Positions 8,446 through 59,721 of a stretch of DNA of 64,000 nucleotides are shown here, in pieces. Source of the stretch: Apostichopus japonicus. Lineage: Eukaryota; Echinodermata; Holothuroidea; Aspidochirotida; Stichopodidae. The notes under the pieces are model-generated. The model was given only the letters and a program-made list of their open reading frames with translations, did not search any database and was not told the origin of the DNA. Location: contig NC_092570.1 in NCBI RefSeq assembly GCF_037975245.1, positions 12,625,001 through 12,689,000 of the forward strand, read 5' to 3'. How positions within the stretch are numbered: position 1 is the first letter of the stretch; each line of letters opens with the position of its first letter. The position numbers were made by a program, and so were the translations under genes.

Positions 8446-8598
8446 ATGAAAATTTGTCTGACTTACGTGGTTTTTTCGCTCTGTCTTGCTGTTCATGTAT
8501 ATGGTTTCCCTGTTGGGCAGCCATCGAAGCAAGAGAACAGGGAGAATGGCCAACGGGTGGCAGGAATCGCCAAGAAAAATGACCATGCTGACTTACTG
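8446..8598 (+). CDS. Gene A exon 1: signal peptide and charged linker of a Gly/His-rich secreted protein
   Basis: This exon encodes 51 residues. Residues 1-20 form a signal peptide (MKICLTYVVFSLCLAVHVYG) with likely cleavage before FPVGQ. Residues 21-51 are a polar linker rich in Gln, Asn, Glu and Lys. The exon ends in codon CTG followed by GTGAGT, a good 5' splice site, in phase 0. Read through, the frame stops after 60 codons, so the ORF makes more sense as a first exon. The next plus-strand acceptor that opens a long frame in phase 0 is at 10745, giving an intron of 2147 bases. The joint is inferred from splice sites and phase; no transcript was seen. The same layout recurs in genes B, C and D. 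Confidence 0.78.
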
Positions 8599-10745
8599 GT
8601 GAGTCTTTCACAGTTACATGGAACTTAGAGGCCAGTCTGTGTTCTGTTATCATCGGACCGAATTTCACTGATTTGTGAAATTGACAATAACTGTTAAATA
8701 TAAACTAAAGGTCAAATTGATTCAATTTACAGAATGAGATCATCTTTAAATAGGTACTTGTCGATCATATTTACTGCAACCGACAGATTTGTCAAACTTT
8801 AATAATACAGCCAATTAATGACCTTTCCCCAACTCTCTCTCTCTTTGTCTACCTTTGTAAATGAATAATTATTGTATTCATCCCGTCGCCAAGGATAATT
8901 AATGAATTCATTGGTTCTTACAATATTCCAATTGGTTTTAAATTTATTTTCGAGTTTAACTTAAAGTGTAATGATCTTACAGAATACATTATGTACATTG
9001 CTAAGTGTTCGGCAAACTTAAAGGAGACTTAGCAAGTGAAGAAAAATGAAACATCACTTGATGGTATCAACTTACATTGACAACAGTTCAATGTTTATGT
9101 CGCCATGGCAACATAGCAAACAGTATCTAAAACTTGACAATATTTGCTGACAAGTGTATTGTTAATTTTTATATTTTAATTAAACTTCGCCAGCAGTTTT
9201 CGATATCAAGCCATATCTTTTTCAATATATAGTTCGATAAAAGGCGCCAAGCCGTCATACTACGCTAACAAGAAATTTAGTTAAACGTCGGACAAATGTC
9301 CGTGATCAAGCAAGGATTGTAACGTAAAACGGTTAAATGAAAAGAGACATATATACTGAACAGATGCATCAGGCCCTTCCTTCATCCCCACCTTACGCCC
9401 CTCCCCACCCCCTCGCGAAACCTAGTTTATGTACCCATCGACTTGCTGAGCACGTCAGTATCACGTGAAGGTATATAAACATTGCTGTTACTATATATGA
9501 ACCAGATATTAATTAGCGTAAATATCTGACATTTCAAAATACTATTCATTTCGAACTATACGAGTAGCTTACAAACTTTCTTCGTCAATTGCGATCAGTT
9601 TACTTAAATAAGTTAGTAAAATATGCAAATATAACCTTTTGATGTAGTTTTATCAATTGAAGGTGAATTATGGAAAAGAATCAATTATTGTCTTATTATT
9701 GTCTTAATTAATCACATGATTCAAAGAGCAAGAAAAGAAAACCTTGTCGGTATTTCTGTTTTTATATGAGATGACATTTGTGAATTGAAGAACTTAATTC
9801 ATTGCTTTGATATATGGGAACTTCAAGTGATATCGAAGACGTAAACTAATGCAATCAACAAAGGAAGCTCAATGCAAAATTAAAATATAATGAATAAAAG
9901 AAAACATTAAATTAGTAGGGCAATAAGTAATGTAATTAGTAATGACACTCGAAGGAGCATCTTAGTAGAAAAGGGGAAGTTCTATATTTTATTATTATTA
10001 ATATTATGATCTATTTGTGATATAGTTTTACTACAATATTTTTTCGTTATTTCTTCTTCCACTGTTGGAAGCATCCCCAAACCTCCTTGTGATGTTGGTT
10101 TGTTGATTAGACCCACATCCCGTTGTGTAAGTAATGCATATAGTTCAAATGTGCAATGATACTTTTGGTTTAGTCCTTTAAACAAGCATGAGAATAAACA
10201 CACGCCCACAGACAAACACAAATAATAACAAAACCACCTAAATATATGCAGTGAATGAGTTATCCAGGGAAAGAGTTACCGTATTCTTATAGGACCAACC
10301 ACCCCATTCTAAGAAAATATAAAAGTAAGAGAAAGGCTATATTCCTTGGTTGTGTAACATTATCCATTGTCTGCACTTTTCTCTTAGGCTATGTTAACAG
10401 CATCGTTAATCGTTTAATAATATGATATCGAATGATGTAAAAGGTAATTTGGCAGTTTGTTGAGAATGTGGTATTAGTATAACATGTAAATGTAGGACAG
10501 GGTTTAAGTGTATACTTGGTAGTGTTATTGTTGTGGTGAATAGTGTGATACATACAAGTAACTAGTTTGTGATCCAGTGAAGTGAACCAATTAATGAAGA
10601 AATAATACCCTAGCTCCACTCTCAGTCTACGACAGTGATAACCATTCATAACAGTAATGTACAGACAATGAAAACTATTGTAATGTATTCTCTTCTCAAA
10701 TTGCTGTATTGATCATACATTATAATTTCTCTTTTTGATTTATAG

Positions 10746-12008
10746 AACCAACTACAAATGGCTTTAGCTGAACGGAAGAGCACCAAAAAAGGTTGGGGAT
10801 GGGGTGGTGGAGGAGGAGGTGGTGGAGGAGGTGGCGGTGGAGGTGGTGGAGGTGGTGGAGGAGGTGGTGGAGGTGGAGGAGGCGGTGGAGGAGGCGGTGG
10901 AGGAGGCGGTGGAGGAGGTGGTGGAGGCGGTGGAGGAGGTAATACAGGAGGCGGTGGAGGTGGTGGAGGTGGAGGAGGTGGTGGTAATACGGGAGGAGGT
11001 GGAGGTGGTGGAGGCGGTGGAGGAGGAGGTAATACAGGAGGCGGTGGTGGCGGTGGTGGTGGAGGAGGAGGTGGTGGTGGTGGAGGAGGAGGTAATACAG
11101 GAGGCGGTGGAGGTGGTGGCGGGGGAGGAGGGGGTAATACAGGAGGAGGTGGAGGAGGTGGTGGTGGTGGGGGAGGTGGTGGTGGTGGTGGTGGAGGAGG
11201 TAATACAGGGGGCGGTGGTGGAGGAGGAGGAGGCGGAGGTGGTGGAGGAGGAGGTAATACAGGAGGCGGTGGAGGAGGTGGTGGTGGCGGTGGTGGAGGT
11301 GGTGGAGGTGGTGGTAATACAGGAGGAGGTGGAGGTGGTGGAGGCGGGGGTGGAGGAGGTAATACAGGGGGAGGTGGAGGAGGTGGTGGTGGTGGAGGAG
11401 GTGGTGGTGGTGGAGGCGGTGGAGGAGGTAATACAGGGGGCGGTGGTGGAGGTGGAGGCGGAGGTGGTGGAGGAGGAGGTAATACAGGAGGCGGTGGAGG
11501 AGGTGGTGGTGGCGGTGGTGGAGGTGGTGGAGGTGGTGGCGGTGGAGGCGGTGGAGGTGGTGGTGGAGGAGGAGAAGGGGGTGGAGGAGGTGGACACGAT
11601 GACAGTAGTGATAGCAGCCATAGTCTCAGTGATAGTAGCCACAGTCACGGCAAGAGCAGCCACAGTCACGGCAAGAGCAGCCACAGTCACAGCAAGCACA
11701 GCCATGGTCACAGCAAGAGCAGCCATGGTCACAGCAAAGGCAGCCACAGTCACAGCAAGAGCAGCCACAGTCACAGCAAGCACAGCCACGGTCACAGCAA
11801 GAGCAGCCACAGTCACAGCAAAGGTGGTAAAAGTAAACACCATGGAAGCAGTAGCAGTGGTAGCAGAAGTAGGAGAGCTGATGATATGAGTAGTTTACAC
11901 GGTTGTCAAGGACACCGTCATATGGGAGATGGAGGACATATCAACAAGAAGATGACTCTAGCTGATGTACTTGAGAAGAGACAGCCTGTGCATGCACCTC
12001 AACTATGA
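10746..12008 (+). CDS. Gene A exon 2: poly-glycine tract plus Ser-His-Lys repeat, secreted structural protein
   Basis: The acceptor is TTTATAG before 10746, and the exon opens in phase 0 with NQLQMALAERKSTKKGWGW. Joined to exon 1 the protein has 471 residues. Residues about 71-334 are almost pure glycine, broken by 11 evenly scattered Asn-Thr pairs. Residues 335 to about 425 are Ser/His/Lys/Gly repeats built on SHSHSK and SHGHSK hexamers. The last 40 residues are unique, with one Cys (GCQG) and the end KKMTLADVLEKRQPV. Glycine codons mix GGT, GGA and GGC, so the tract is not a simple DNA repeat. Two Trp sit just before the glycine. Such Gly-rich and His-rich blocks occur in animal glues, jaws and silks; the exact material is unknown. 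An AATAAA lies 75 bases after the stop. Long frames on both strands here are shadows. Confidence 0.82.
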   Translation, partial: NQLQMALAERKSTKKGWGWGGGGGGGGGGGGGGGGGGGGGGGGGGGGGGGGGGGGGGGGGGGGGGNTGGGGGGGGGGGGGNTGGGGGGGGGGGGGNTGGGGGGGGGGGGGGGGGGGNTGGGGGGGGGGGGNTGGGGGGGGGGGGGGGGGGGGNTGGGGGGGGGGGGGGGGNTGGGGGGGGGGGGGGGGGGNTGGGGGGGGGGGGGNTGGGGGGGGGGGGGGGGGGGGGNTGGGGGGGGGGGGGGGNTGGGGGGGGGGGGGGGGGGGGGGGGGGGGGEGGGGGGHDDSSDSSHSLSDSSHSHGKSSHSHGKSSHSHSKHSHGHSKSSHGHSKGSHSHSKSSHSHSKHSHGHSKSSHSHSKGGKSKHHGSSSSGSRSRRADDMSSLHGCQGHRHMGDGGHINKKMTLADVLEKRQPVHAPQL

Positions 12009-13901: not shown

Positions 13902-13994
13902 ATGAGATTTCGTCTCATTATTTTTTTCTTCGTTGCATATGCATCACTCACATCACGTCATTGGGCAAGCCAAGCCGAAGGTCATTCACATGAA
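13902..13994 (+). CDS. Orphan signal-peptide exon, possibly an alternative first exon of gene B
   Basis: ATG at 13902 opens 31 codons with a hydrophobic core (MRFRLIIFFFVAYASL) and the end AEGHSHE. A perfect GTAAGT donor follows in phase 0. The size, phase and design match the first exons of the other cluster genes, and its His-Ser-His end recalls the His/Ser repeats of A, B and C. No private second exon was found. Because both this exon and the one at 14427 are in phase 0, either could splice to 22702. It could also be the relic of a lost neighbour gene, or a chance ORF; the frame meets a stop three codons past the donor. Confidence 0.42.
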
Positions 13995-14426: not shown

Positions 14427-14528
14427 ATGAAGGGTACTTTGGTTTGCTGCGTGCTGTTCTTGGTCGTTTACAGCACCCACGGAGCACCCCTTGAGCGCAA
14501 TAAGAGGGATGATACTCTCATTGAGAAG
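14427..14528 (+). CDS. Gene B exon 1: signal peptide and charged start of a Gly-rich secreted protein
   Basis: The exon encodes 34 residues. A signal peptide (about residues 1-19, ending in YSTHG) is followed by APLERNKRDDTLIEK. The donor is AAG|GTAAAT in phase 0. The mature start APL plus charged residues is shared with genes C (APLAQDEED) and D (APLAKRELDD), strong support that these are first exons of one family. A good TATA box lies upstream. The nearest downstream plus-strand exon of the family starts at 22702, so the intron would be 8173 bases; it holds tandem repeats and a foldback element. Additional small exons inside that intron cannot be excluded. Confidence 0.68.
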
Positions 14529-16435
14529 GTAAATTTCTATATTAATGAACTACATGGGTTTCTAATAAAACATAAATTATATCATTAATGTTTGATGCAT
14601 TTTAGGTACTGTATAGTATAGTAAGGGAATACAAGTTTGTTGTACCATGGCCTGAAACCTAATTAGGTTTAACTGTACTTAGATGAGAGAGACAAAACCT
14701 CATTCTCATATGTTTCTTACAGTGATGCGTATATCTATGATAACTGCTCAAACAAATTCTAAATACTAAATCGTGATTCTCTCGTGAGTTCAAACCAAAG
14801 TTCAATACCCATATCTTTATCTAAAAGCTGTTATTTCATATTTTGTACAATTTGTGAAATCATATTATGTAGTGCAGGGGGCACAACCGATTGGTTGCCT
14901 TTAAAAGTTCATAATTTCAAGATGAAATAAACATTGGTGTTAATGATGTTTGTTAAACATTGGCCGAACATTTCGACAATTTCTTTGACAGCTATTGTGA
15001 AACAACACTGCTTTTTTTTACGAAAGTTAACATTGTTACTGATTAAGAACAACCGCTAAATTTTCAAGGAGTACTTGTTGTTGTGACGCTGAGAATTGTT
15101 CAAGTCTTCTGTCCTGTTTGTCGAGAACATAATGAGTCTGATGTCTCCTACATCATTGAATATTTAGCTATTTGAAGGTTTATTCTTTACTGCCGTAGTA
15201 GTTTCGGATATAACGCTTTGACGCGGAGAAGGCGTATAATCAAACGGTCATTCGATCGTGGGAGTATGTGTACATTAATATTAACTGCAAGGTCCTTCAT
15301 TAGCTTACTTAAATAATTTAACCAATAGCAAAGAGGAACCGATGAGATTCATACTATAAGTTGAAATTGTGGTTGTCATAAATGGCATAGGCACTCACGC
15401 GTTTTTTATGGGCAGATTCTTCATATAAGTGAAGAACGCCCCCCCCCCGATTGGTTTTACACAATAGCCAGCGTGACATCTCTGCCCTAGTTAAGAAGGT
15501 GGTTATAGCTGTGCTAACAGTTCATATTGTAGAACACTGTAGTTCTACCGACAGACTGTGTTAACATATAGGCATAATAACCAACATCATCGCCTAGTCA
15601 AATTCGTCATTTTTTAACCACTCGTTTCGGAAATTCGAACAAACTAGAACAAGGGCTATACATCAGCATCGCTCCCAAAATATGCTAGCAAGTCAAATAT
15701 TGGTCACTTGTGACGAGTAGTTTAGCATAATAATCAATTAATGTTTTGTTCATTGTGACACGTCATTATACAACTGAACACAATCTGTCAATAATTTTGA
15801 AGGTCGGAGGAGCCTCCAGGAAAGCATCCACTTTTGAGATATTTTCGAAATTTAACGATCTTAAGATATAGTGGTCATCACTAATTGCCTGCAGCATCAC
15901 GTTGATTACTAGATATTTTTACTTTTGTATACTAGCACCCCCTCCCCTCCGTCCCATCCACCCCTTCTATTGCTGCCAACATTTAAAGTATTCGCTCTAA
16001 GAGCTCGCCGTGGGTACATTATTTAATGATAATCTGAGATTATTGATCTTTCGTTGCAATTTTCAAAGAGATTATCCATTACTTATTTCCATGACTCTAA
16101 GATGGTGCAGTATTTCGAGTTAAAAGTTTAATACACAACTATATGTTTAATGTTGGTAGTCTGTACAGAGAGCAACCAGCAACTTCCTTTACCGTAATTA
16201 GATTCCACATTATAACATTACAAAGTACAGCTGTAAGGTACCAACTATAGCTTTACAATATTTGCTCTTGTCGTATAAAACCATGACACCAACATACCAC
16301 GCATGCGCATAGCCAATGACTCATGAATGATGTTATGCTTAGATGCCGTGACTAGACTCATGCATAGTATACCTATGTTAATAGGGGCACAGTTCACCCT
16401 AAAATAAGCTCCTAAAGAAATGTCACAAATGATCG

Positions 16436-16465
16436 ATATATATATATATATACATAATTATATAT

Positions 16466-16507
<42 letters not shown>
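16436..16507. repeat. (TA)n microsatellite, imperfect
   Basis: Alternating TA with two short breaks (TACATAATTA and AAATA), inside the gene B intron. Just downstream, at about 16660-16760, TCATATGTTTTCATATAGTCT recurs about four times. Confidence 0.8.
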
Positions 16508-16510
<3 letters not shown>

Positions 16511-17569
16511 ATAGGTCGCTCTTAGTACCATTAATTTTCACTGGAGTGGGTGCTTCAGCCATGCTGTGGGGGGGGGCAGCGGGTGGGGGGGGGGGCTGGT
16601 AGAAGGGATACAGATCGATGTGATTCTGCTTCTTAAAGGATGACTTTAGGAAGAAGTTTAGTTTTCATATGTTAATTTGTATGTCTTCATATGTTTTCAT
16701 ATAGTCTCCATATATGTTATCATATAGTCTTCATATGTTTTCATATAATCTTCATATGTTAACTCCTCTGTAACAATCTTAATAAGATCTTTTTTTCTTC
16801 TTTGTGGCATGGATGCATGTCAATTAACACAAAGTGATCAAAGTTCTTTGTCAATCAAAATAAAACACGGAAACTTCTTCACAACTATTTTCATGTTACT
16901 TCTTAATGCTCTTCTTCGTCTTATTGACTGTTCTCTCGTGCGATCAATAATGAGCAGAAAACATAAAAGATGTCCATTACCAAGTTGAATTAATGTCATC
17001 ACAGCGTGAAGAAATTACAAGATAAAGTAATATTTCAATCATTAAATTTAATATTTAACATGCAGCTGCCTCTTGCTCAGATGAATTCAAAATGTACGGT
17101 ACAGTTGAATTATAGTTCAGCCACGTACTAACGGATTTATATCTCAACTACAGCGACAGCTTCTGACGAGATGTTTTATGCAGCCTACACTTTTTGCTGA
17201 AAAGTTCGAAATCCTTCGGGTGTGCAATATAGATATGATGAATGGAACTATCGTCTTTTCATGTACAACGTACTGCGTGCGTATAATTTTATATGCTACT
17301 ATGGTATAACGGTTGTGTTCTTGGCTACAGGGAAACAACGTGTACAATCTAGACGAAATATATTCAGGAATCTCTCAGAATCAGTTGAAATTTGTCATCC
17401 CATATTTAATTTATTAGAAATGTAGTACGCCCTCTTTCACTAAACCCCTCTTCATACCAGTTGCGTATAAAGTACTTCAAAGTGGGGGGGGGGGGGGGAA
17501 CATATACAACCCAACGCGCTCAACCCTCAATGTTTAACATATGAGCTGAATCTTTCGTTGTAGGGCCAG

Positions 17570-18420
17570 AGGCGAACGAAGGATTTTAAAAAGGAGGGGG
17601 ACTGTTGTGTGGTCTTGAGGTCGACTCCTATATAAAGGTGGGAGGGAGGGGGTGGGGACCACAAAGAAGTTAAGAGGTCAAAAGGGGCATTCTGATTCTT
17701 ATTTAGACTATAAATCAGGTCTTTATTAGAATATCTAAACTTAAGTTTCCCCGACTGTGTAATGTAGGTGGGTGAACGTTTGTGGAATGGATCAGAGGAG
17801 AATGAAGGATTTTATGAAGGAGAGGGACTGTTCTGGGGTTATTTCTATGAAGGGGGTCTGGGGATCCTTCCCCAGAAAAATAGCAAACTTTTAAATGTGA
17901 AAATGATTCACTCTGAGTCATACTGAGACTATAAACTATAGGTCCATATAAGTAGCTCTATTGGCAGGATTGTGCTAATAAATAATAATAAACTTCAGCG
18001 TTACCCCGAAGGACTTGTGCGTGTGGGGTGGGGAGGGGGATCCCACAGAAAGTAATATTCAAATTGAACATAAGGAGGCTTATTGAGACTATAAGTTAGG
18101 TCTTTATAAGTAGCTCTAAACGGAAAGTTGTTCTATTTAATAATAAAAAAAAAATCAAAATTTACCCGGACTGATTAAGCTAGGGGCCGGAATCTTTATG
18201 GGTGACCTGTGACGAACGAATTATTTTATAAAGGAGGTATACTATTCTGGGTCATTGAAGTCTAGACAATGTATGGGGGTTTTGGGTCCTCCTCCAGAAT
18301 TCTTTTTTAAATATTCAGACGTCGAATTCTGATGCATGTTTAGACTACAAATCAGGTCGATATAAGTAGCCATAAACGTAAGGTTTTATTAACAAGTACC
18401 TGAAAAAAGGGAAGGATACA
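17570..18420. repeat. Divergent tandem repeat with four units of about 160-255 bp
   Basis: The marker GACTATAAATCAGGTC and its variants occur near 17705, 17928, 18088 and 18343. Each is followed by TATAAGTAGCTCTAAA-like sequence, and most are preceded by GAACGAAGGATTTTA and a G-rich segment. Units are clearly related but strongly diverged. The block lies in the gene B intron. Confidence 0.6.
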
Positions 18421-20422
18421 TCGGTAGTAACGGTTCAAATCTTCCCCGGCTGAATGCCAACATCCCCCCACTGAACCACCCCCCCCCCTCACTAACTGTC
18501 GGAGGTGGGGGCTGGCCAAATACCATATTGCTTAGGGCATTGAAGTTATTCCACCAATAGTTACTTCATGTAAAGCCATATGAGATGCAAATGTGTCTTC
18601 TTTTTTTTCTTTATAGGGTCTAAGGATATTTGACAATGAGAATAATTTTGGTTTCTTCTGAACGGGTCCTTAGGTTTCTTTAATTTAAGTACAACCAGTT
18701 GGTTTGGTACAAGGTCAAGGGCTATTAACTGTCTTTCTTCGCATCAGACCATTCAAGGATACGTGTACATTAAAGTTAAATAGCGCCAATAGTTATTAAT
18801 AACACCCTCTGTCTTAAGTGTATCGCAGTAACGTAAAGCTAATGATGATATATAAATCACACACATAGGGTACAGTTACACATGCAACACTTAAGAATGC
18901 ATGTTCCGAGATGCTGATTTGCACATTAAAAATCAAGCGGATATTTTAAGCATTGTCATTAGTATATGGAAGGCTATAGGCCTACTTAGCTAATTGCGAC
19001 CTGTTTGCAATCAATAAAAGAAACTTGATATCCTTCTCATGGACACTCTGTGGAAGTTGCTTGAGTGACCCTGTGTAGCGGAATATGGGATGTTACTTTA
19101 TTAAAGGCTAACAGCTGCTTTAACGATTAGTTTGTATTATGCACACATTTGAGGCAAGTGTGAATTTCGTTTCTCTTTCTCGCCGCATTGACTGATTTTA
19201 ACAATTAAATGGGAACATCCAATAAAAAAAGCCCTCAGCTATTTTTGGACTGACAACACCTGTCTATTACCATAAACATGGAAAAAAGAAGTTGGAATAA
19301 CCTTTCAAGGAAAAAATGTCACGCGAAACGTCCGTAATGCCATTATGAACAATCAAAGAAAAGTCTTCCGCATGACTGGAAAGAAGGAGAGAAACGAAGA
19401 AGAGGCAGCAAGCAGGAAAAAGAAGAATGTGATTGTGATTACAAAGAATATAAAACTTGACACAGCAAGAACTCAAGGTCGCATATTTTACACCATCGGT
19501 CGGCAAACCCACCAAGACCCACCAGATCCCCAGCACCCTGCATGATCACCCTTGAAAACTTAACCAAGGCCCACCAGATCCCCATTCCTCAGATCTCGAT
19601 GGTCAGGATGCTTGTAGATTAGATTGGACTATGGATTTGATATTTAAAAGAATTTACATCGGCAAGACTCCGAAAACTATATATATCTCTCCAACAGCTG
19701 AAAAATCACGTGACCTACTAAAACTTTTCTCTAAAAAAAAAAATCCATTCAGTTCTTAACAGGAATATAAACAAGGTTTTTTTTAAGTTACTTATTTGTT
19801 TGATTCGAGACAGCTATTTAAGAAGAACTAGTCATTTCAAGAACACCTCGCCCCCCCCCATCCGCCCCCTCGTCCTTTCTACTTCTCGTTTCACAGCATT
19901 TCGGAGCCAAATTCTTGTTATTTTAGTATTAATATTTACTATTCATCATTATGTAGCAAGCAACTTCCAAGATGTTAAGGTTTTCTATCTTTACAAAATC
20001 ATTACCGGTATTTGATATAAGAAGCAGAAAAAACTGACAAAACATTGGAAATGATGAATCAAAGAATGGATTCTACTCTAAGTAGATTATCCTGCTGGTA
20101 CAAGCCTGGCCCTCACCATTACCTCATCCGACATAAGCGGTGGAAAGTAATCGGGTGGATGGATCCAATGGCTGGGGTACTGCACCTCCCCCCCCCCCCC
20201 CCTCACAGTTCTAACCTCTCACAAACTTTCAAAGTAGTTATTATAGCATATACAAAACATAGAGTTTAGACCTAACTGTAGACATAACCTATACAGTATA
20301 TAGTCTTATACAGTATATAGTCTTACTATGCCTCGCAATACAGCCTTTGACGTCTACAATTTCCTTGGGACCGTACCCACCAGATTCACCCACATGTCAG
20401 TTGGCTAAGGACCACAAGGCGA

Positions 20423-20893
20423 ACGTCTATGGCAAGCCATGTGGGACAAACACCGCATAATATATCCGCGTATTAATTCGAATATATACGCGTATTAATT
20501 CAAATACACATGTGTTGTACAAGTTTCGCTTTTTGAAGCGATCTCGCGAGCCCGCCAAAACATTTATCGTTGGTATATGTACACAGCAAGAGCGGAAATG
20601 TTTTTTCGCATGTATATTCTAATTAATCCGTGCATATATTGGATTTAATCTCCATATGTATTTTATTTAATACGTGTATATATTCGAATTAATACGTGTA
20701 TATATTCGAATTAATACGTGTATATATTCGAATTAATACGTGGATATATTCGAATTAATACGCGGATATATTTAAGCCATATGATTGGCTCATAATATAT
20801 ACGCGTATATATTACAATTAATACGCGTATAAATTCCAATTTATACGCGGATATATTATGCAGTGTTTGTCCCATATGGCTTGCCATAAACGT
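20423..20893. mobile_element. Foldback element with about 50-bp terminal inverted repeats
   Basis: The left end (ACGTCTATGGCAAGCCATGT and onward to about 20475) and the inverted right end (ACGTTTATGGCAAGCCATAT) match over about 50 bases with only a few differences. The interior is built from TATATTCGAATTAATACGTG units, themselves partly palindromic. No coding sequence. It lies in the gene B intron. Related AT-rich units (ATATTCAATTTAATACGTG) recur at about 45190-45420 beside gene C. No clear target duplication was found. Confidence 0.7.
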
Positions 20894-21758
20894 CCACCTC
20901 CTCTTATAAAATCTTGAATCTGCTCCAAGCGATCACCAGACTTTTATGTACCATCCTTTTACTTCACAACACTCGTAGTAGGTTCGGCCAACTACCGACT
21001 TCTCTTTCTTTAATCTCAGATGAAGGCAAAGTGGCTTCAGGAGGTTGTTGTATATAGGTTAATGAATAAAATTGACAACTGGTTATACAACACGCACCTT
21101 TAATCAGAGTTAATAAAAAAGAAGCGAAGGAACAAGTTAAGTTAACAAATGAGAATCAGGACTTATCCCTCCATAGAATTCTATATATATATGTATGTAT
21201 GTCAGAATATCATTAATTGAGCAAATAACCTGTAAACAGCCTTTTTCTAAAATTGTCTTGACATTAAGTTGGCCACTTTTTGTTGTTGTACAGTAAACAC
21301 TTGATGTACTGCTAAACTCAAGAGTAACATTTTTTTAAATTTTTCTTATCTTCATATTTCCGTTACCCTGCCTGTGTGCGTGTGTGTGGATGGAATTACC
21401 CTAGAGGATGCGAAAGGGAGGTGGGTGGGGGAAGGGTGAGGTGAGAGGTTTAAACGGAAGCCTAATTCACAGGCAGGTAGGTATTCCGCATTTTGTTCTT
21501 CTTTGTATCAATTCGGTTATAATTGATTTACAACAAATCCAAATAGCAATATTGAACACTCTTGTATGTGTGTATGTGCGTGTGTTTTTATTGTGTGTGT
21601 GTTTGTGTGTAAAAAAGCTGCATTTGGAAATGACAGCCCTCGGTGTATACCGCAGAGGGAAGGGGTGTTATGATGGTTACGCCAATTGAGTGTCACAATA
21701 AGGACCTCTGATCACGTGGAAGGTCATTAACCTGTCTGTATTCTGTGCATGTTTTTGT

Positions 21759-21905
21759 CTCTTCTGTTACTATTACTTGTCATTTAGCCTTTGAAGAAGA
21801 TCCTGCTAGGATCGAAACGTCAGGCCAACTTACTTTTACACATTCTCTTACACAGGCTCTCTAGTGGATAAGCAGTTTGCTAACAGTTTTATTTTATTTT
21901 GACTT
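21759..21905 (+). repeat. Dispersed hairpin repeat, copy 1 (GATCCTGCTAGGATCGAAAC family)
   Basis: About 147 bases: TTGAAGAAGATCCTGCTAGG, then ATCGAAACGTCAGGCC, then ACTTTTACACATTCTCTTAC and a tail TTTTATTTTATTTT. Nearly the same sequence recurs at 35590-35742 (plus), 35541-35583 (minus, partial) and 53113-53220 (minus). GATCC-TGCTA-GGATC forms a five-pair stem. Confidence 0.75.
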
Positions 21906-22701
21906 TAAAGTTATAAATGTGTATACCCTATGATTGGGGATATGATTGGGGATATGTTAGTTGCATGATTCCCGGTGATTTGATGTCCAGGCAGACGGAA
22001 TTTTATAACCAGATCAACAGCTTACAGTGTTTTCACCGATATTCTCTACGAAGTTGTAAACTTTTCTTTTCGTCTAAATCTGTAAATTATTCGGTAAAAA
22101 CTTGATGAGTGACAACGGCTTCTACCATGATATTAACGATACTAATAATAATGTAGGCTTGGTATGATAGTATGTTGATTTTGTTATTAAACCAAGTTGC
22201 ATTTCTGCACGAATGTATTTGATAGAGACATCGTCATGCTGTAAACGCAGTCAGTGGATTTGAGATTGCTGATCACAAGTCTTATATTTGCTAAATCAAA
22301 CTTTATTCTCTGTGGAATGTGATAAATAGCTTTTGTGACGACGAAACTTGCTTTTCCCGTAGATAATGCTAACCAATTGATCTGATATCAAGGGTGAGGT
22401 AATGACAGTTTACAAGAACCATAGCAGTGCCTCATGAGGGATTTAAATATGTTTATAGTGACACTCCTGACTCCCTGTAAAACCTACACACACAAGGCAT
22501 AAATGTAAACGTCAGATCTACTTCATAGTTCCTACGTACTATAATTTCATACGAAACAATGACCACAATACCCAAAAAAGCTAATCACAAACGAACGGCA
22601 AAATAGCAGCTTTCTCATACGACATAATTTGGTTCTAAAATGAATCACAGGTGAAAATAACCTAGTTTGTTATTGATAACTATTCAATATATTTTTGACA
22701 G

Positions 22702-23535
22702 GCTCTATCGGTAGTGGATGACAAGGAAATCGACAATGGCAAAGTAGAGGAAGACAAAAAGTTCTGGAACTTCTGGAATCACTACGGTGGAGGAGGCGGT
22801 GGAGGTGGAGGAGGTGGAGGAGGCGGAGGAGGCGGAGGAGGCGGAGGAGGCGGTGGAGGCGGAGGAGGCGGAGGAGGCGGTGGAGGCGGAGGAGGCGGTG
22901 GAGGTGGTGGCGGAAACAACAACGGTGGAGGCGGAGGTGGAGGCGGAGGCGGCGGTGGTGGCGGTGGTGGCGGTGGTGGCGGCGGTGGCGGCGGTGGAGG
23001 TGGAGGTGGAGGTGGAGGCGGAGGCGGAGGTGGAGGAAACAACGGCGGTGGAGGTGGAGGCGGAGGCGGAGGTGGAGGAAACAACGGCGGTGGGGGTGGA
23101 GGTGGAGGCGGAGGTGGAGGAAACACCGGTGGTGGTGGTGGTGGCGGAGGAGGAGGTGGAGGCGGGGGTGGAGGAAACAACGACGGTGGAGGTGGCGGAG
23201 GAGGTGGAGGCGGAGGTGGAGGAAACACCGGTGGTGGTGGTGGCGGAGGAGGAGGAGGAGGAGGTGGAGGCGGAGGCGGAGGCGGAGGTGGAGGAAACAA
23301 CGGCGGTGGAGGTGGAGGTGGAGGTGGAGGCGGAGGTGGAGGAAACAACGGTGGTGGTGGTGGCGGAGGAGGTGGAGGCGGAGGTGGAGGAAACACCGGT
23401 GGTGGTGGTGGAGGTGGAGGTGGGGGAGGCGGTGGTGGTGGTGGTGGAGGCGGCGGTGGAGGTGGTGGAGGAGGAGGAAACAACGGAGGTTGCACAGGAA
23501 ATGGTGGAGGTGGTGGAGGTGGCGGCGGCGGTGGC

Positions 23536-23567
<32 letters not shown>

Positions 23568-23934
23568 TGGTGGTGGTGGTGGCGGCGGTGGTGGTGGTGG
23601 TGGTGGAAATGGAGGTGGGGATGTTGGATGGGGTGGCGGACGAAAGCCAATTAAGTTTCGTCCTCCGTTCAATTGGATTGGTCGGAGCAGTAGCAGCAGT
23701 GACAGCAGCAGTCGTAGTAGCAGCCACAGTAAGCATAGCAAAAGCAGAAAGAGCAGTAAGAGTAAGAGTAGAAAAGGACACAAACACAGCCATAGCCATA
23801 GCAAACATAGTGGAAGCAAGAGCAAGCATGGGAAGCGAAAACATCGCCATGGTAACCGAGGTTCATGGAGTCGCGAAGAAGTTCTCCTTGATACTTTGAT
23901 GACGAAAAAGATCGCTGTTCAGAATGAAGTTTAA
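22702..23934 (+). CDS. Gene B exon 2: poly-glycine tract with Asn-Asn breaks and Ser/His/Lys tail
   Basis: The acceptor is TTTTTGACAG before 22702. The exon opens in phase 0 with ALSVVDDKEIDNGKVEED, an acidic stretch, then KKFWNFWNHY directly before glycine. There is no ATG at its start, so a spliced upstream exon is required. Joined to 14427-14528 the protein has 444 residues. Residues 63-340 are glycine with Asn-Asn or Asn-Thr breaks and a lone Cys in GGCTGNGG. Residues 341-365 (DVGWGGGRKPIKFRPPFNW and following) lead into a Ser/Lys/His/Arg tail with SHSKHSKSRKSSKSK and HKHSHSHSKHSG. The end (REEVLLDTLMTKKIAVQ) is a short helical-looking segment comparable to the end of gene A. Glycine codons are mixed. 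The function is probably extracellular structural; no known family is recognised. Poly-Pro and Val/Glu frames across it are shadows. Confidence 0.8.
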
Positions 23935-31077: not shown

Positions 31078-32211
31078 TAATTATTATAAAAAGATGCAAA
31101 CTAAGGTCTATGATTTTCACTCAATATTCGAAGTATTTTGTGTTCTTGTTCACTCTTTTGCTGAAGATTCACGTATGTAACATAAATTACCGTGTAAATA
31201 CATTACTCCAAAAAATATCCATTAAATACTATTTGAGATCTGTGTTGTTTGGGAGATTATGAAATTTACAGCTGCATTTCACGTTTGGTTTGTAACTGTG
31301 GTTGTAGTCGGTGATGTCGAATGGCAATTTGGATCTGAAACCTTTCCTATCCTTACTCTTTGTTATTTACCTTTATAAATTTAAGATGAATTCTTCGCAA
31401 TGTTGACACTAAAACAGGTGCCATCTTTAGGTCATGTTTAAAGCTTCAATATATTAAATAAAGTTAAAGCGTTACAGTTATTGAGCACAAACACTAGCAA
31501 CCCTTATACTAACTATGTTTGATTTATTTATGATTGCTTGTAGCGGGCGAAGTCACAATTTAATTGAACCTAATTCTCTTCTAACAGGTTTAACCAGATA
31601 TAAATACTTCTGTTCCGTCTTCCATAATTTTATGACATCCATCATCGCCAAACACGTGATGACACCCTTTGTCTGGAAAATGGAAAATATTTTCAAATTA
31701 ACATAACAAAAGATATGGTCTATACGATTAAACTACGGCGAACCTTAAAATGACAAGCAGGGTTTTATTCCTCTTCAAGAAATGCAATAACTGATAGAGA
31801 ATTTTAAGACAATGTCACTATTCAAAATGACATATATCTCGCCAATTGTACAGTATACAGATTAGTCGCTCAAGTATATCAAGATTATAAACAAACTAAA
31901 TTAAATTTATCCAGAATCTACTAGGTCCAACCTATTAATGTGAAATGTTCGAGTGAATGAGCAGTTACATGCCACATAACAATGAAAAAGTAAAGATAGC
32001 CATAATAAACAATAACAATTACAGATGTTTGTCGTAGTCAAAGAAAATTAATTTTAAATGAAACTAATTCTATAAGAAGGATAAAACGGTGTGTGATTTC
32101 ATCTCTTCTTAGTTTAGTGAGAATTCATCAGAGCTAAAATACTATCCAAATTATCACTCTCTAACTCAATAAGTGACTTTTGCTCTTATTCAATTAAGTT
32201 TAGGTCACGCA

Positions 32212-32276: not shown

Positions 32277-32465
32277 CTAACCTCCAATAAATCCATCTTC
32301 CTTCAGATTCTCTACCTTACTTTCTCTAACAAGGGTGTCTAATCCCCTCAAACCGAGAGACAACTCAGGTTCTTGCTTCACAGACGATTCTTGCCTCTGT
32401 TTAAATATGGCAGGCAAAGCGTCAAACAGCCTCTGTATTATCAGTTCATCCCTCTTAGCACGGAC
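32277..32465 (-). CDS. Gene E exon 2: helical charged segment ending the small secreted protein
   Basis: The acceptor TTGCCGTATAG precedes 32465. The phase-0 frame reads VRAKRDELIIQRLFDALPA and continues without a break through SLGLRGLDTLVRESKVENL to KEDGFIGG and a TAG stop. The full protein is 91 residues. An AATAAA lies 60 bases past the stop, supporting a two-exon gene. A possible donor (GGAG|GTTAGT) just before the stop, in phase 1, would allow a longer form as in gene C, but no third exon was found. The segment RDELIIQRLFDAL resembles RAEDVITSLLAAL in gene C exon 2. It has no Cys and no glycine tract. Function unknown; a helper or ancestor of the repeat proteins, or an unrelated secreted peptide. 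Confidence 0.62.
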   Translation of the reverse strand, partial: VRAKRDELIIQRLFDALPAIFKQRQESSVKQEPELSLGLRGLDTLVRESKVENLKEDGFIGG

Positions 32466-34997: not shown

Positions 34998-35084
34998 CTG
35001 GATTCCACCATCTTCTTCCGATATTGGAGAACATTGGGTGACGACAAATCCAAGAAGAAATACGTAAATTAAGCGGACGTCCAT
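34998..35084 (-). CDS. Gene E exon 1: signal peptide of a small secreted protein
   Basis: The exon encodes 29 residues: MDVRLIYVFLLGFVVTQC as signal peptide, then SPISEEDGGIQ. The donor CAG|GTAAGG is excellent and in phase 0. The open frame upstream of this ATG is not hydrophobic and is judged 5' UTR. The mature start SPI plus acidic residues parallels the APL plus acidic start of genes B, C and D. Its partner exon is at 32465, after an intron of 2532 bases that contains a large inverted repeat and a plus-strand LINE scrap. Confidence 0.68.
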
Positions 35085-42943: not shown

Positions 42944-45057
42944 TTATTGTGTACTCTTATCATTTGACAATACATTTCTTTCCGCTCTCCTTCGAAGAAC
43001 TGACTGACGACTTATGAAGCTATTCCAGTGGATTTCAGCTTCCCTTTCAACATGATTTCCTCGTTCGTGAATCTTAAATAGATCACATCCATGACCGGGA
43101 TATTTATTGCCAGGCTCAACTGTTGTCTGTTTCAAAGGAAGAGTAAATATTGGCGGGAATGTCGATGCTTTTGGTGTTGGATTCTTAATATCACTACCAC
43201 CGTCCGAAGTTGCTACTGTTGTCTCAAGTACGTTTGTGATTTGCATCTTCGTGGTGGGAACTGTAGTCGGCAACTTCGTCGTCGGCACGGTTGTGGTGGG
43301 TACTGTTGTCGGCACCTTCGTCGTCGGCACGGTTGTAGTCGGTACTGTAGTCGGCAACTTCGTCGTCGGCACGGTTGTAGTCGGTACTGTAGTCGGTACC
43401 TTCGTCGTCGGAACGGTTGTGGTGGGTACTGTAGTCGGTACCTTCGTCGTTTGCACGGTTGTGGTGGGAACTGTAGTCGGCAACTTCGTCGTCGGCACGG
43501 TTGTGGTGGGTACTGTTGTCGGCACCTTCGTCGTCGGCACGGTTGTGGTCGGTACTGTAGTCGGTACCTTCGTCGTTTGCACGGTTGTAGTCGGTACTGT
43601 AGTCGGCAACTTCGTCGTCGGCACGGTTGTGGTGGGTACTGTTGTCGGCACCTTCGTCGTCGGCACGGTTGTGGTCGGTACTGTAGTCGGCACCTTCGTC
43701 GTCGGCGGCACGGTTGTAGTCGGTACTGTAGTCGGTACCTTCGTCGTCGGAACGGTTGTGGTGGGTACTGTAGTCGGTACCTTCGTCGTTTGCACGGTTG
43801 TGATGGGAACTGTAGTCGGCAACTTCGTCGTCGGCACGGTTGTGGTCGGTACTGTTGTCGGCACCTTCGTCGTCGGCACGGTTGTGGTCGGTACTGTAGT
43901 CGGCACCTTCGTCGTCGGCGGCACGGTTGTAGTCGGTACTGTAGTCGGTACCTTCGTCGTCGGCACGATTGTGGTGGGTACTGTAGTCGGAACCTTCGTC
44001 GTCGGCACGGTTGTGGTCGGTACTGTAGTCGGCACCTTCGTCGTCGGCACGGTTGTGGTGGGTACTGTAGTGGCTACTTTAGTCGTTGGAGCACCTCCTC
44101 CACCTCCTCCTCCTCCACCTCCTCCTCCACCTCCTCCACCTCCTCCACCTCCTCCTCCTCCTCCTCCTCCACCTCCTCCTCCACCTCCTCCTCCACCTCC
44201 TCCACCTCCTCCACCTCCTCCACCTCCACCTCCTCCACCACCACCTCCTCCTCCAATTTCTTCACCTCCACCTCCTCCTCCACCACCACCTCCTCCTCCA
44301 CCACCTCCTCCTCCTCCACCACCTCCTCCACCTCCTCCTCCTCCACCTCCTCCTCCTCCTCCACCTCCTCCACCTCCACCACCTCCACCACCTCCTCCTC
44401 CGCCTCCACCTCCACCTCCCCCTCCACCTCCTCCGCCTCCCCAGCTTGTGCTACCGCTTCCACTTTCTTTGCTACTCTTTCCTCCGCTATGGTCATGGCT
44501 CTTCCCATGACTGTGACTCTTGCTCCCACTTTCCTTGCTGCCTTTACTGCCGCTATGGTCATGGCTCTTCCCATGGCTGTGACTCTTGCTCCCACTTTCC
44601 TTGCTGCCTTTACTGCCGCTATGGTCATGGCTCTTCCCATGACTGTGACTCTTGCTCCCACTTTCCTTGCTGCCTTTACTGCCGCTATGGTCATGGCTCT
44701 TTCCATGGCTGTGACTCTTGCTCCCACTTTCCTTGCTGCCTTTACTGCCGCTATGGTCATGGCTCTTCCCATGGCTGTGACTCTTGCTACCACTTTTCTT
44801 GCTACTCTTGCCACCGCTCTTTCCTTTACTGCTCTTTCCACCGCTCTTTCCTTTGCTCTTTCCACCGCTCTTTCCTTTACTGCTCTTTCCACCGCTCTTT
44901 CCTTTACTGCTCTTTCCACCGCTCTTTCCTTTGCTCTTTCCACCGCTCTTTCCTTTGCTCTTTCCACCGCTCTTTCCTTTGCTCTTTTTACCACTTTTGC
45001 CTCCACTTTTACTTCCGCTGCCGCTCTTACTTTTTCCTCTCTTGAAGGCATCTAAAT
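42944..45057 (-). CDS. Gene C exon 3: Lys/Ser/Gly, His/Ser, poly-Gly and mucin-like Thr/Pro blocks
   Basis: The acceptor TTTACTGTTAG precedes 45057, in phase 1; a second AG six bases later would delete two residues. The exon starts DLDAFKRGKSKSGSGSK. With exons 1-2 the protein has 774 residues. Order: Lys/Ser/Gly repeats (KSGGKSSKGK type, about 77-155); five 22-residue His/Ser repeats (SKSHSHGKSHDHS core, 66-bp units); residues 277-392 poly-glycine entered through STSWGG and broken once by EEI; residues 393-673 Thr/Pro/Val repeats (KVPTTVPTTTVPTT, 42-bp unit), a likely dense O-glycosylation domain; residues 674-774 unique, with one Cys (HGCDLFKI) and a basic end (RRRAERNVLSNDKSTQ). All blocks are in one uninterrupted frame. 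The opposing plus-strand frames, though up to 654 codons long, are shadows: they lack exon structure and a signal peptide. Confidence 0.8.
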
Positions 45058-45580: not shown

Positions 45581-45686
45581 CTGCTTCACTCTCCACAGCT
45601 TCTAATCCACTGTAGCCCCGTTTGCTGTCCTCTAATGCCGCAAGAAGACTTGTGATGACATCTTCTGCCCTTCTGTCGACGCTTAC
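45581..45686 (-). CDS. Gene C exon 2: short amphipathic helical segment
   Basis: A pyrimidine-rich acceptor (TTCTTCTTCTCTCAG) precedes 45686. The exon of 106 bases reads in phase 0 from exon 1: VSVDRRAEDVITSLLAAL, then EDSKRGYSGLEAVESEA. It ends GCAG|GTTGGT in phase 1, a usable donor with G at position +5. Phase 1 is what the acceptor of exon 3 requires. The pattern of charged and hydrophobic residues resembles the start of gene E exon 2 (RDELIIQRLFDAL) and of gene D exon 2 (ERQERLVAKLTEDL). It may act as an oligomerisation or propeptide segment; that role is inferred. Confidence 0.65.
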
Positions 45687-47393: not shown

Positions 47394-47498
47394 CTCGTGG
47401 TCGGTTTCTTCATTGTCTTCCTCGTCTTGAGCCAGCGGCGCGGCCGTAGCGGCCAATAGCAGACAGGTCAATAATAATAATATCCGTAGCGATTCCAT
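47394..47498 (-). CDS. Gene C exon 1: signal peptide and acidic start
   Basis: The exon encodes 35 residues. The signal peptide is MESLRILLLLTCLLLAATA, followed by APLAQDEEDNEETDHE, a strongly acidic stretch. The donor GAG|GTAAGA is good and in phase 0. The APL mature start plus acidic run matches genes B and D. The intron that follows (45687-47393, 1707 bases) holds two tandem repeats. A TATA box lies close upstream and a hAT-type element about 600 bases upstream. Confidence is high because signal peptide, donor, phase and a downstream compatible exon all agree. Confidence 0.78.
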
Positions 47499-52150: not shown

Positions 52151-53112
52151 GATAACATCGTTCATGGTCCAGTTAGCTTCTTACTTCAGAGAAATTCATA
52201 TCTGGTTGGAAGCTAAATATGCTATGGAATGTGCTAAAGAGTGATCGGGTTTATTACAAATCACCTCTCTGCTGATTATTTTATATGTCTGAATATTCCC
52301 AAAATATTTGTTATAAACTCCTGAATGTGGACAGATGAGGCTACATAACGTCAAGAACTGTATAGTGGCCCTTAGAAGTAACCTTACAAAAAAACGATAA
52401 ACAATTTTTCAAACAATTTTTCAAAGTATGAGAACGCTAATATTGCGTTTGACAGAGAAACGATTTATTAATCGTTTAGTATGGATATTTCAAATATAGT
52501 TTGTTCAGTAACGAACGTGACGTCATCTGGGCAAATGTAGATTACAACATAACCCACGTTGCATACAGTTCCGACAGTAGTCACAACCTTAACCGCGATT
52601 GAATACAGATTAATTTTTCCTTAAGTTTTCGGTGAAATTTCTTATAAATTAGAAATGTTTAAAAAAATCGTTAAGCCGTCATCTATGTAGGCCTAGTGCA
52701 TGGGTGATTTCGTGGTCTTTGTGTAACACAAGGTTAGCTTCAACAGCAGACTCTTCGTTGTTTACATTGCGCTGTCCAGCTCGAATGCGAAGAATGTGGT
52801 AGGCTATATTGTTAGGTTTACAATCGGACAAAATTTCTATGAATGCTAAGCTTCCCGGTACTACATTCTGCTCTGCCATCGATTCCGCAATGTTTCACCT
52901 TTCGATATTGCAATACTTTTCAAGTAATATTAAGAAGCTTCCTTTATTGTAAATGTGATCCGTGAATTTCATTTCAGCGATTTCGAAAAACGGTTTATTA
53001 AATGTGGTTTAAGTGTATTTTGTGCAATGCTATGTACGTACCAACTGGCCAACTAGGCATTGTATGATGTACGTTCGCGATGTGTACGTAATATATAAAA
53101 GGATAAATCAAA

Positions 53113-53220
53113 TAAAATAAAACTGTTAGCAAACTGCTTATCCACTAGAGCCTGTGTAAGAGAAAGTGTAAAAGTAAGTTGGCCTGACGTTTCGATCCTA
53201 GCAGGATTTTCTTCAAAAGC
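53113..53220 (-). repeat. Dispersed hairpin repeat, copy 4
   Basis: Minus-strand copy of the family at 21759-21905: TTGAAGAAAATCCTGCTAGG, then ATCGAAACGTCAGGCC and the same downstream block and AT-rich tail. It lies about 250 bases past the end of gene D. Confidence 0.7.
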
Positions 53221-53473
53221 CAAGCCATTGAAGAAGATACTATATTAACATTGCCAGATTTTCTGTATAAATAAACCAAAAGATATACAAATTAAGAAAG
53301 AAACAGAAATGGCAAAATCCAAAGGAAGTACCGTGGTTACAACTATATTTGGTTATGACATCAGTTAACACTTTAACATATACTTTCTATCAAATTGAGA
53401 ATTACACTTTGTACAAATTAAGTCTAGAGTAATCTATACTAATTGTTAATATACGGATCCATGATGAAACATC

Positions 53474-55014
53474 CTAGCGACCAAACCAATGTCGCCATCC
53501 ACCACCTCCCCCTCCACCTCCTCCTCCACCTCCTCCTCCTCCACCTCCTCCTCCACCTCCTCCTCCTCCTCCACCTCCTCCTCCTCCTCCTCCACCTCCG
53601 CCTCCGCCTCCTCCTCCTCCTCCACCTCCTCCTCCTCCACCTCCACCTCCACCGCCTCCACCACCACGTTCTATCACCAGTTCCTTTTTGTCACAATCTT
53701 TTGGATTTTTGCCACCTCCTCCAGCACCCCCTCCACCGTTCCCTCCTCCTCCACCACCACCGCCTCCACCATTGTTACCGCCTCCACCTCCTCCGCCTCC
53801 TCCTTTTCCGCCATTGTTTCCACCTCCACCGCCCCCTCCACCGCCACCGCCTTTCCCGCCATTGTTACCGCCTCCACCGCCCCCTCCACCGCCTCCAACT
53901 TTTCCGCCATTGTTTCCACCTCCACCACCACCGCCTCCGCCTCCTCCTCTTCCACCATTGTTTCCACCTCCACCGCCCCCTCCACCGCCACCGCCTTTCC
54001 CGCCATTGTTACCGCCTCCACCTCCACCTCCACCGCCTCCAACTTTTCCGCCATTGTTTCCACCTCCACCACCACCGCCTCCGCCTCCTCCTCTTCCACC
54101 ATTGTTTCCACCTCCACCGCCCCCTCCACCGCCACCACCTTTCCCGCCATTGTTACCGCCTCCACCTCCACCTCCACCGCCTCCAACTTTTCCGCCATTG
54201 TTTCCACCTCCACCACCACCGCCTCCGCCTCCTCCTCTTCCACCATTGTTTCCACCTCCACCGCCTCCTCCACCGCCACCCGCCTTTCCCGCCATTGTTA
54301 CCGCCTCCACCTCCACCTCCACCTCCACCGCCTCCAACTTTTCCGCCATTGTTTCCACCTCCACCTCCACCGCCTCCGCCTCCTCCTTTGTTACCTCCAT
54401 TGTTACCTCCTCCACCGCCACCTCCACCACCGTTATTACCGCCGCCGCCTCCTCCTCCACCACCTCCTCCTTTGTTACCACCATTGTTACCTCCTCCCCC
54501 ACCTCCACCTCCTCCATTGTTGCCTCCTCCTCCACCTCCTCCTCCACCTCCTTTGTTCCCTCCATTGTTACCCCCCTCCACCGCCGCCACCGCCGCCATT
54601 GTTACCTCCTCCTCCACCACCACCACCTCCTCCTCCCCCGCCTCCGTTATTACCACCGCCTCCTCCTCCACCACCTCCTCCTGTGTTACCACCGTTGTTA
54701 CCTCCTCCTCCACCACCGCCTCCTCCCCCGCCTCCGTTATTACCTCCACCTCCTCCGCCACCCCATCCTCCCCAACCCCCAGTCCAATCTTTCCAATTAT
54801 TCCAACCACCACCGCCACCTCCACCGCCGTTGTTGCCGCCACCGCCTCCGCCTCCTCCGCCTCCTCCTCCTCCTCCGCCGCCACCTCCTCCTCCTCCTCC
54901 TCCTCCACCGCCTCCGTTGTTGCCTCCTTTATTTCCGCATTTGTTGCATTTACCGCGTTCATCAAGATCTTCAGTGAGCTTTGCAACCAGTCTTTCCTGC
55001 CTCTCCTTAAGGAC
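53474..55014 (-). CDS. Gene D exon 2: Cys-, Trp- and Gly-rich repeat exon with two single-base frameshifts
   Basis: The acceptor TTCACTCATCAG precedes 55014. The phase-0 frame starts VLKERQERLVAKLTEDLDER, then GKCNKCGNKGGNNGG (a CxxC) and poly-glycine. A Trp cluster follows (WNNWKDWTGGWGGW, residues 108-121). This frame hits TAA at 54568 because a run of six C at 54571-54576 (plus strand) has one base too many. Past it the glycine frame continues to about 54280, where CCC replaces the CC of sister repeats and shifts the frame again. The third frame carries NNGGK/NNGGR glycine units in 144-bp repeats, NPKDCDKKELVIER, another glycine tract, and ends GWRHWFGR at a TAG. Ignoring the two extra bases the protein is about 549 residues; as written it stops at about 185. 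Either sequencing indels at C runs or real decay. Long frames on both strands here are mostly shadows. Confidence 0.7.
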
Positions 55015-58115: not shown

Positions 58116-59610
58116 ATCCAAATTAAAGCAGCGTTTTGAGTTTATTTTGATCAATATTTTGCTGCTGTTCAGTACTAAAATATCAAATTACTAGATCTTC
58201 ACTGAATAGCTCGACTAGCCAAGATTTTGTTTCAGATAGTGGAGTACACGTTCAATTGTTTTAAATAAATTTCCATGTAGTGTTAAACCGTGCTTACTAT
58301 GCCACTATGAAAAGTGTACGGACGAGAACAATGTCCATAATTGAATAAATATCTTTTATTACCTTCTGATGAACCTGCGTTTGGTGGAAAAAGGAATAAC
58401 CAGGAAAGCGTCTTAGCTTTACAAATTAAAATCTTATTTTGTGCAATCATTGTAAGGTTTGGAAAAATTGCTGAACAAACTAAAAAACGCTGCTTTAAGG
58501 AAAACTTGAGACTTTAACGGTGTACTGTAACATGTTTACACTGTATACAATCTTGTCATGTACACAAATCGTATGGGATTTCATCCATTGGTGCTTGGCT
58601 GTTCATATGAAGTTAAACAAACATTTTCGGTTGAGTTCAAAGAATTGATTTACATAAATTGTAAAAGATGAAGCGACGCCATCCTCGAATTAACCTTCCA
58701 GACATTTGACACATTTTAATGGTGCATTTTTTGATAACAGAATTAGCTATATAGAATATTTACTTCCACTCAAAGGAGGGTGGGTGGGGTGGTGTGGGGT
58801 GGGGGGGGGTGATGACTTATCAATCTAAAGTCGTCTTTTAGGAGGCAGTGGGCCATCTTATTGAAGTAATAAGTTGCATAAAATCATAAAGAAAATAATC
58901 TTTTATATAGTTACTGAAGCATATGATACTCTTTAGTTCAAGCTCCGAGCTCCGAGCTGAGAGCTTTGCGCTTTTCTTCAAGTTTGTTCAAGTAGCTAAT
59001 CTATAGTACTGCGTACATGTTTATACCAGACAGGCATAGGACTTTCACCGTAATGATTTGATACCCGAGGTCACTACGTCCTAGTAGTTTGGTACTGTAA
59101 CAAAGAGCTATTGAAAGTTCTGACAAGTTTTAGCTTTTTAGACCTAATTCTAACATCAAGTTTGTAAAGTTATTTTACGTAAATTATATGTTACTGAAAT
59201 CAAAGACTCAATCGAGCTGTTTGACTTCTTAAATGTCCGGTAAACATTTAACTTTCTCTGTACAAACATTCTTAACATATTGAGTACAAATCTACTAATA
59301 CTAACTATGATATCTTTAGCTATTTTTAACGTCTAAGTACCGGTCAGTCTCTTAAGTCTATTGATTGAAACTTCCATCTATAGGCCATTATAGTTCTGGA
59401 CAATCGCTTTGTAAGTAGTGACGAGATCATAAATAATTATTATTGAAAAATAACAAAAATAACAAAAAATTAACGTCAATTATCTTGTATTTAAATTTTG
59501 TCGCCCAGACACAATTTGTCTTGACCATGAAATGAGTATAAAATAGATGAAATTTATGCGAAGATTGATTCTAAACCTTTAGTTTATAATGAGAGAATAG
59601 AATGGCCCAC

Positions 59611-59721
59611 CTCGTCTTTCTCGGTTTCATCGTCCAATTCCCTCTTAGCCAATGGTGCAGAGAGGGAGACGGTGACGAACACCACCAGAAGGGCCAGCAC
59701 CAATACAAGTAGACGGGCCAT
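59611..59721 (-). CDS. Gene D exon 1: signal peptide and acidic start
   Basis: The exon encodes 37 residues. The signal peptide MARLLVLVLALLVVFVTVSLS is followed by APLAKRELDDETEKDE. The frame is open upstream, with ATGs at 59736 and 59838. I chose 59721 because it places the hydrophobic core at the extreme N-terminus and has A at -3 and G at +4. The donor GAG|GTGGGC is weaker than in the sister genes but keeps phase 0. The APL start and acidic run match B and C. The nearest compatible exon on this strand begins at 55014 with a frame that immediately yields the cluster's Gly-rich pattern, leaving an intron of 4596 bases. Confidence 0.68.

Follow-up and report, generated by a model that had tools for sequence, protein, structure and literature searches.

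Five probably related secreted-protein genes, four of them with long glycine runs, in the sea cucumber Apostichopus japonicus

Described repetitive secreted proteins and the A. japonicus locus

The sea urchin spicule matrix proteins SM30 and SM50 are clustered, repetitive and secreted, and carry a C-type lectin domain. In mussel byssal preCols and the cement proteins of the sandcastle worm, a single secreted structural protein combines Gly-rich with His/Lys-rich blocks, and the glycine-rich proteins of plants and animals, a descriptive class, usually consist of GGX repeats. In the sea cucumber Holothuria leucospilota, the Cuvierian organ outer-layer proteins (COOLPs) are characterized, in a review, by long tandem repeats, no functional domains or orthologues and a predicted full β-sheet, with the Cuvierian organ ascribed to Holothuriidae (PMC12472103).

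We analyzed a 64,000-nucleotide stretch of the A. japonicus genome (contig NC_092570.1, positions 12,625,001 to 12,689,000 of the forward strand; hereafter the window), which holds four Gly-rich genes, A to D. Compared by description only, A–D are, like the COOLPs, long-tandem-repeat proteins of a sea cucumber, with no known domain in the eight pieces searched against Pfam; they differ in lineage, A. japonicus belonging to Stichopodidae and the Cuvierian organ to Holothuriidae, and in having polyglycine where COOLPs are predicted to be fully β-sheet. With SM30 and SM50 they share the character of clustered, repetitive, apparently secreted echinoderm proteins, but none of the same eight pieces has a Pfam match to the C-type lectin domain. 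A–C can be likened by composition to the preCols and sandcastle worm cement, with Gly-rich and His/Lys-rich blocks occurring together, whereas A–D lack a collagen block, and tyrosine is so scarce (two residues each in A, B and C) that there is little scope for DOPA, unlike in byssal and cement proteins. A and B agree with the glycine-rich class in having a signal peptide and more than half glycine (C has only 22.0%), but A–D depart from it in their unbroken runs of 43–59 glycines and, among them, separate Ser/His/Lys and V/P/T blocks. Gly-rich structural proteins as such are known; what is unusual is how long and how pure the glycine runs are, together with the mix of blocks.

Gene models and the reading of the repeats

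The four Gly-rich genes were recovered, by stop-to-stop reading and exon modelling, at the places given in an earlier note on this DNA, with A and B on the plus strand, C and D on the minus strand, and the two groups facing each other within the window, as that note had claimed. Gene A (8446-12008, plus) comprises a signal-peptide exon ending in phase 0 (8446..8598, from the hydrophobic-core scan and exon model), an intron of 2147 bp and a second exon (10746..12008, stop included) encoding polyglycine with NT spacers, Ser/His/Lys repeats and a Cys-containing C-terminus. Gene B (14427-23934, plus) has a signal-peptide exon of the same phase (14427..14528), separated by 8173 bp from an exon (22702..23934, stop included) with polyglycine, NN/NT spacers and a Ser/His/Lys block. 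Gene C (47498-42944, minus) is split into a signal-peptide exon ending in phase 0 (47394..47498), a 106-bp exon ending in phase 1 (45581..45686) and a third exon (42944..45057, stop included) that holds K/S/G repeats, 66-bp S/H/G/K repeats, Gly runs, 42-bp V/P/T repeats and a Cys-containing C-terminus; its introns measure 1707 and 523 bp. Gene D (59721-53474, minus) begins with a signal-peptide exon ending in phase 0 (59611..59721), followed after 4596 bp by a Gly-rich exon with NN spacers and two frame breaks (53474..55014).

The signal-peptide exons ending in phase 0 that had been proposed for A–D were thus found again (starts at 8446, 14427, 47498 and 59721), each at a GT donor and with the Gly-rich exon downstream behind an AG acceptor, and the Ser/His/Lys repeats assigned to A, B and C are present in these three and absent from D. 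The general plan of a signal exon, a long intron and one very large exon with hundreds of glycines describes A and B well (262 and 265 glycines); it has to be amended for C, which has the extra middle exon and only 170 glycines, the larger part of the protein being other repeats. The large exon is open without an internal stop through to the stop codon in A, B and C (products of 471, 444 and 774 amino acids), and its frame is broken twice in D.

Glycine makes up 55.6% of A (262/471), 59.7% of B (265/444) and 22.0% of C (170/774), the longest pure runs being 46, 43, 59 and 56 residues in A, B, C and D. In C, 113 of the 170 glycines fall in two runs (59 + 54), and the bulk of the protein consists of K/S/G, S/H/G/K and V/P/T repeats rather than Gly runs; its V/P/T region (43251-44086, minus), with about 20 copies of the 42-bp unit, would by its composition look like an O-glycosylated, mucin-like segment. 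If cleavage occurs at the assumed sites, the mature proteins have masses of about 36 kDa (A), 34 kDa (B) and 73 kDa (C), a pI of about 10.1 and a charge of +12 to +47 at pH 8. There are 12 H-x-H sites in A and 10 in C, five S-x-E sites in C, and dibasic sites close to the N-terminus in B, C, D and E (a further gene described below). Downstream of the repeats, non-repeat C-termini follow in frame in A, B and C.

The Gly frame of D shifts twice, by one extra base each time, at about 54571-54575 and at 54279-54280, which leaves three open segments of 97, 76 and 210 glycines, the glycine content being high in each. At the second break the copy is one G longer than three sibling copies, and both breaks may be either a fault of the assembly or a real allele; an extract of the description of a published A. 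japonicus assembly reports HiFi reads and 47% repeats (PMC10344927). D ends in Phe-Gly-Arg-stop (53474-53500, minus) and E in Gly-stop (31590-31620, minus). C-terminal ends of this Gly type are often seen in amidated peptides.

How often signal-peptide exons of this kind arise by chance was estimated with a scan for an ATG, a hydrophobic core and a phase-0 donor, the thresholds being chosen with the five exons already known. At a donor threshold of 3 the window gave 10 rows. Six of them represent the five genes, D having two ATGs, and the others lie at 13902 (plus), at 8586 (minus, antisense within A exon 1) and, in two cases, within repeat arrays; by comparison, 30 order-2 Markov sequences yielded 0.37 rows on average and never more than 2. 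This null was built from the 55,600 non-repeat bases, while the repeats were kept in the scanned window, so that the array rows fall outside the null. Raising the donor threshold to 5 left six rows, one each from A, C and E, two from D and one from an array, with a null mean of 0.13 and the loss of B. A stricter scan returned B, C, E and two unrelated sites, missing A and D. The row at 13902 corresponds to an extra signal-peptide-like exon (13902-13994, plus) with a weak phase-0 donor, shortly upstream of gene B, a candidate for the start of a sixth gene.

Variation between tandem copies, counted as pN/pS and as changes per codon position in seven arrays of A–D, indicates that the repeats are translated as protein; since copies inside one gene are not independent, the pN/pS figures are indications and not formal tests. 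In the coding frame, third-position changes account for 69 of 88 in the Gly array of A (pN/pS 0.145), 16 of 20 in that of B (0.11), six of seven in D (0.07, for 54280-53784 only) and 12 of 15 in the SHSHGK array of C (0.05). The proportion is lower in the VPTT array of C (60/100; pN/pS 0.30) and the SHSHSK array of A (9/27; 0.37), and the KSGGKSKG array of C, with 17 of 35 changes at third positions and pN/pS of 0.77, is the exception among the seven; in an alternative frame it falls to 0.35, but with three stops. For six of the seven arrays the coding frame gives 0.05–0.37, which points to amino-acid constraint in most of the repeats, although the A SHSHSK and C KSGGKSKG arrays support the coding reading little or not at all. 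Five control arrays, each read in three frames with periods picked by the analyst, gave 0.52–2.42, and lowish values also occur in non-coding frames of D (0.28, from seven differences and with three stops) and B (0.54). Within the Gly blocks the first and second codon positions are nearly fixed (entropy 0.07–0.51 bits) and the third is variable (1.09–1.65), whereas a G-rich control array at 7368 has no such split (1.06–1.22). The window has 45 runs of at least 10 GGN codons, all of them within A–D: 23 in A and B together and 22 in C and D. On the whole, A–D can be taken as a real set of genes for secreted repeat proteins, probably unannotated.

Two G-rich non-coding arrays (5926-6182 and 7362-7744) lie just upstream of A, with G on the strand of A and 51 perfect GGGAG copies among them, and another G-rich stretch follows the donor in the first intron of C (about 47372-47283, minus). 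Such arrays near A and C might serve as a source from which Gly codons arise.

Gene E, kinship within the cluster and the search for relatives

The cluster of four envisaged by the earlier note appears incomplete, since a possible fifth relative without a Gly block, gene E (35084-31590, minus), lies between the two groups. It consists of a signal-peptide exon ending in phase 0 (34998..35084), a second exon ending in phase 1 (32282..32465) and a third (31590..31672, stop included) encoding a short Cys/His end, with introns of 2532 and 609 bp. Its 117-aa product is 100% identical over the full 117 residues to P0001, an uncharacterized A. japonicus protein; the model predates the search, and the agreement of a hand-built model with an annotated protein supports the approach used for the exons. 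The identity also assigns the window to A. japonicus or a very close relative, in line with the echinoderm comparison of the earlier note. E is acidic (pI 4.9), in contrast to the basic A–C. It has the same intron phases as C, 0 and then 1, and in both genes an Asp codon is split after its first base where reading resumes past the intron. As E lacks the Gly block and yet has the intron phases of C, the family may be that of a small secreted-peptide gene, copies of which gained repeats. A single-sequence structure model of E had a mean pLDDT of 41.7, a confidence too low for use.

Kinship was assessed by pairwise shuffle tests (2000 shuffles each) on ten N-terminal and ten C-terminal pairs. Among the N-terminal pairs, A–C (p 0.002), C–D (0.006) and B–E (0.03) gave the lowest values, the others being at least 0.13; among the C-terminal pairs A–B reached 0.0005 and the others were at least 0.06. 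Three of the 20 pairs are therefore at p ≤ 0.006 and 17 at about 0.03 or above. With exon 2 aligned from its first codon, D–E gave p 0.0006, whereas C–D and C–E gave 0.12 and 0.30 in register and 0.011 and 0.025 at an offset of one residue. Five helix stretches pooled gave p 0.004, an optimistic value, as the stretches were picked by eye after inspection. The first intron is in phase 0 in all five genes, and C and E, which alone have a second intron, both have it in phase 1; the helix stretch, however, is interrupted by the intron in A and B and follows it in C, D and E. A DNA self-comparison with the known arrays omitted found interspersed and local repeats only; at E 1e-4, no flanks of paralogous genes emerged. 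The earlier proposal of a locally duplicated family is moderately supported, with the three low-p pairs and the shared phase of the first intron on its side, against 17 weak pairs of 20 and no duplicated non-coding DNA seen. Five secreted-protein genes of A. japonicus probably form one cluster of kin, and A–E are likely, though not proven, to be one family with two subgroups.

No named homologue had been recognized previously, and none emerged from Pfam, composite or profile searches, the only named relative being the record of E itself. A composite query of the non-repeat parts of A–D had no match at E ≤ 10 among 8000 candidates of about 255–810 aa, and in the search with E, five candidates were scored and only its own record matched. 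A profile of the five ends had four matches among 3353 candidates: P0001 is the E protein, P0002 the C-terminus of A (40 aa, one residue different), P0003 exon 1 of A read on into the intron, and P0004 exon 1 of D, an entry that carries no source, as is the case for proteins of the window itself. Since P0003 runs into the intron of A, its origin appears to be genomic or unspliced; it differs from A in one of 51 residues in the exon part and diverges more in the translated upstream flank, with an indel. Within the length ranges searched, A and D were represented by short pieces only and no named A–D protein was found. Eight non-repeat pieces had several sub-threshold Pfam matches, none reaching the family cut-off, and no tRNA genes or Rfam families at gathering scores were detected in the window. 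Among the matches listed from the openly licensed literature, none describes these genes in its title or the start of its abstract, and a term search of the main text of the Holothuria glaberrima genome preprint returned no mention of glycine (PMC13228809). A–D may have been left out of the annotation owing to repeat masking or their simple-repeat look, and the cluster suggests that repeat-rich genes can go missing from good genome annotations.

Proposed function and its alternatives

The signal peptides and repetitive composition point to an extracellular material, and A–D, as far as sequence can tell, may be structural proteins that are secreted to build a glue, coat or matrix. The best explanation, to which we give a probability of roughly 0.55, is a secreted surface coat or glue of the epidermis or tube foot, made by a five-gene cluster that grew from an E-like founder. 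The founding gene would have had a signal peptide, a dibasic site, a helix-like stretch and a short Cys/His end. Repeats of the GGN and Ser/His/Lys types, joined in C by V/P/T repeats, would then have expanded within the last exon of A–D. The proteins would be released from the cell, perhaps with trimming at the dibasic sites; their polyglycine blocks, up to 59 residues long, could serve for hydrogen-bonded chain packing or as hydrated spacers, cationic Ser/His/Lys blocks could hold on to acidic glycans, phosphates, metals or mineral, and the V/P/T block of C might be a mucin-like sugar carrier. The basic composition fits such a presumed secreted polymer of glycine spacers and cationic His-bearing grips, with a mucin-like part in C. 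Against this explanation count the pN/pS of 0.77 in the KSGGKSKG array of C, the frame breaks of D, the non-significance of most kinship tests and the mismatch in intron position. A glue is also at odds with the basic character of A–C, unless they are phosphorylated, as the Holothuria forskali adhesive fraction is acidic; in an extract of its description, the adhesive protein is acidic, contains phosphoserine and has a high share of Gly and charged residues (PMC12472103), and sea star footprint proteins are, in an extract of another report, mostly domain-bearing, with one rich in Ser/Gly (PMC9382459).

The choice of coat or glue over ossicle matrix is the weakest step. As the organic matrix of calcareous ossicles, A–D would be cationic Gly-rich proteins that organise calcite, for which the His/Ser/Lys blocks and the five S-x-E sites of C can be adduced. 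Calcite matrix proteins are usually acidic, a character absent from A–C, and no lectin or other Pfam domain was found in the eight pieces tried, which makes this role unlikely. The species is reported to have few biomineralization genes (PMC5638244), which leaves the ossicle reading some probability.

A role in defence is slightly less probable still: coelomocytes or epidermis would produce Gly/His-rich cationic antimicrobial precursors, freed by dibasic cleavage, in keeping with the signal peptide, the dibasic sites near the N-terminus of B, C, D and E and the cationic Gly/His-rich remainder. Arthropods have antimicrobial peptides rich in Gly, but the usual peptides are much smaller than the 34–73 kDa of these products. 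Least probable is that the Gly blocks are G-rich simple repeats with no protein role, open by chance, or parts of decaying genes, as the two frame breaks in D, the G-rich non-coding arrays upstream of A and the failure of the searches to return a named A–D protein might suggest, against which stand the pN/pS of the Gly arrays (0.07–0.145 versus 0.52–2.42 in controls), the variety at third positions, which the G-rich control array lacks, and the in-frame non-repeat C-termini past the repeats in A, B and C.

The secreted coat or glue might, more tentatively, be a material restricted to sea cucumbers and largely of pure polyglycine (runs of 40–60 Gly), born by repeat expansion in the last exon of a small acidic secreted-peptide gene, with E as the unexpanded copy remaining in the cluster, and overlooked in annotation; we consider this bolder version possible but doubtful. 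Long polyglycine has low solubility and is associated with disease where human repeats expand, and its deliberate secretion by an animal, if true, would show how such chains are controlled and what they build. E compared with C and D may be a before-and-after pair for the birth of a structural protein.

Other repeats in the window include an interspersed element of about 115–155 bp in three copies (21752-21906, 35588-35742 and 53095-53223), pairs of which are 89–95% identical. Two stretches with broken frames, 27228-27534 (minus) and 32741-32935 (plus), look by eye like fragments of reverse-transcriptase retroelements.
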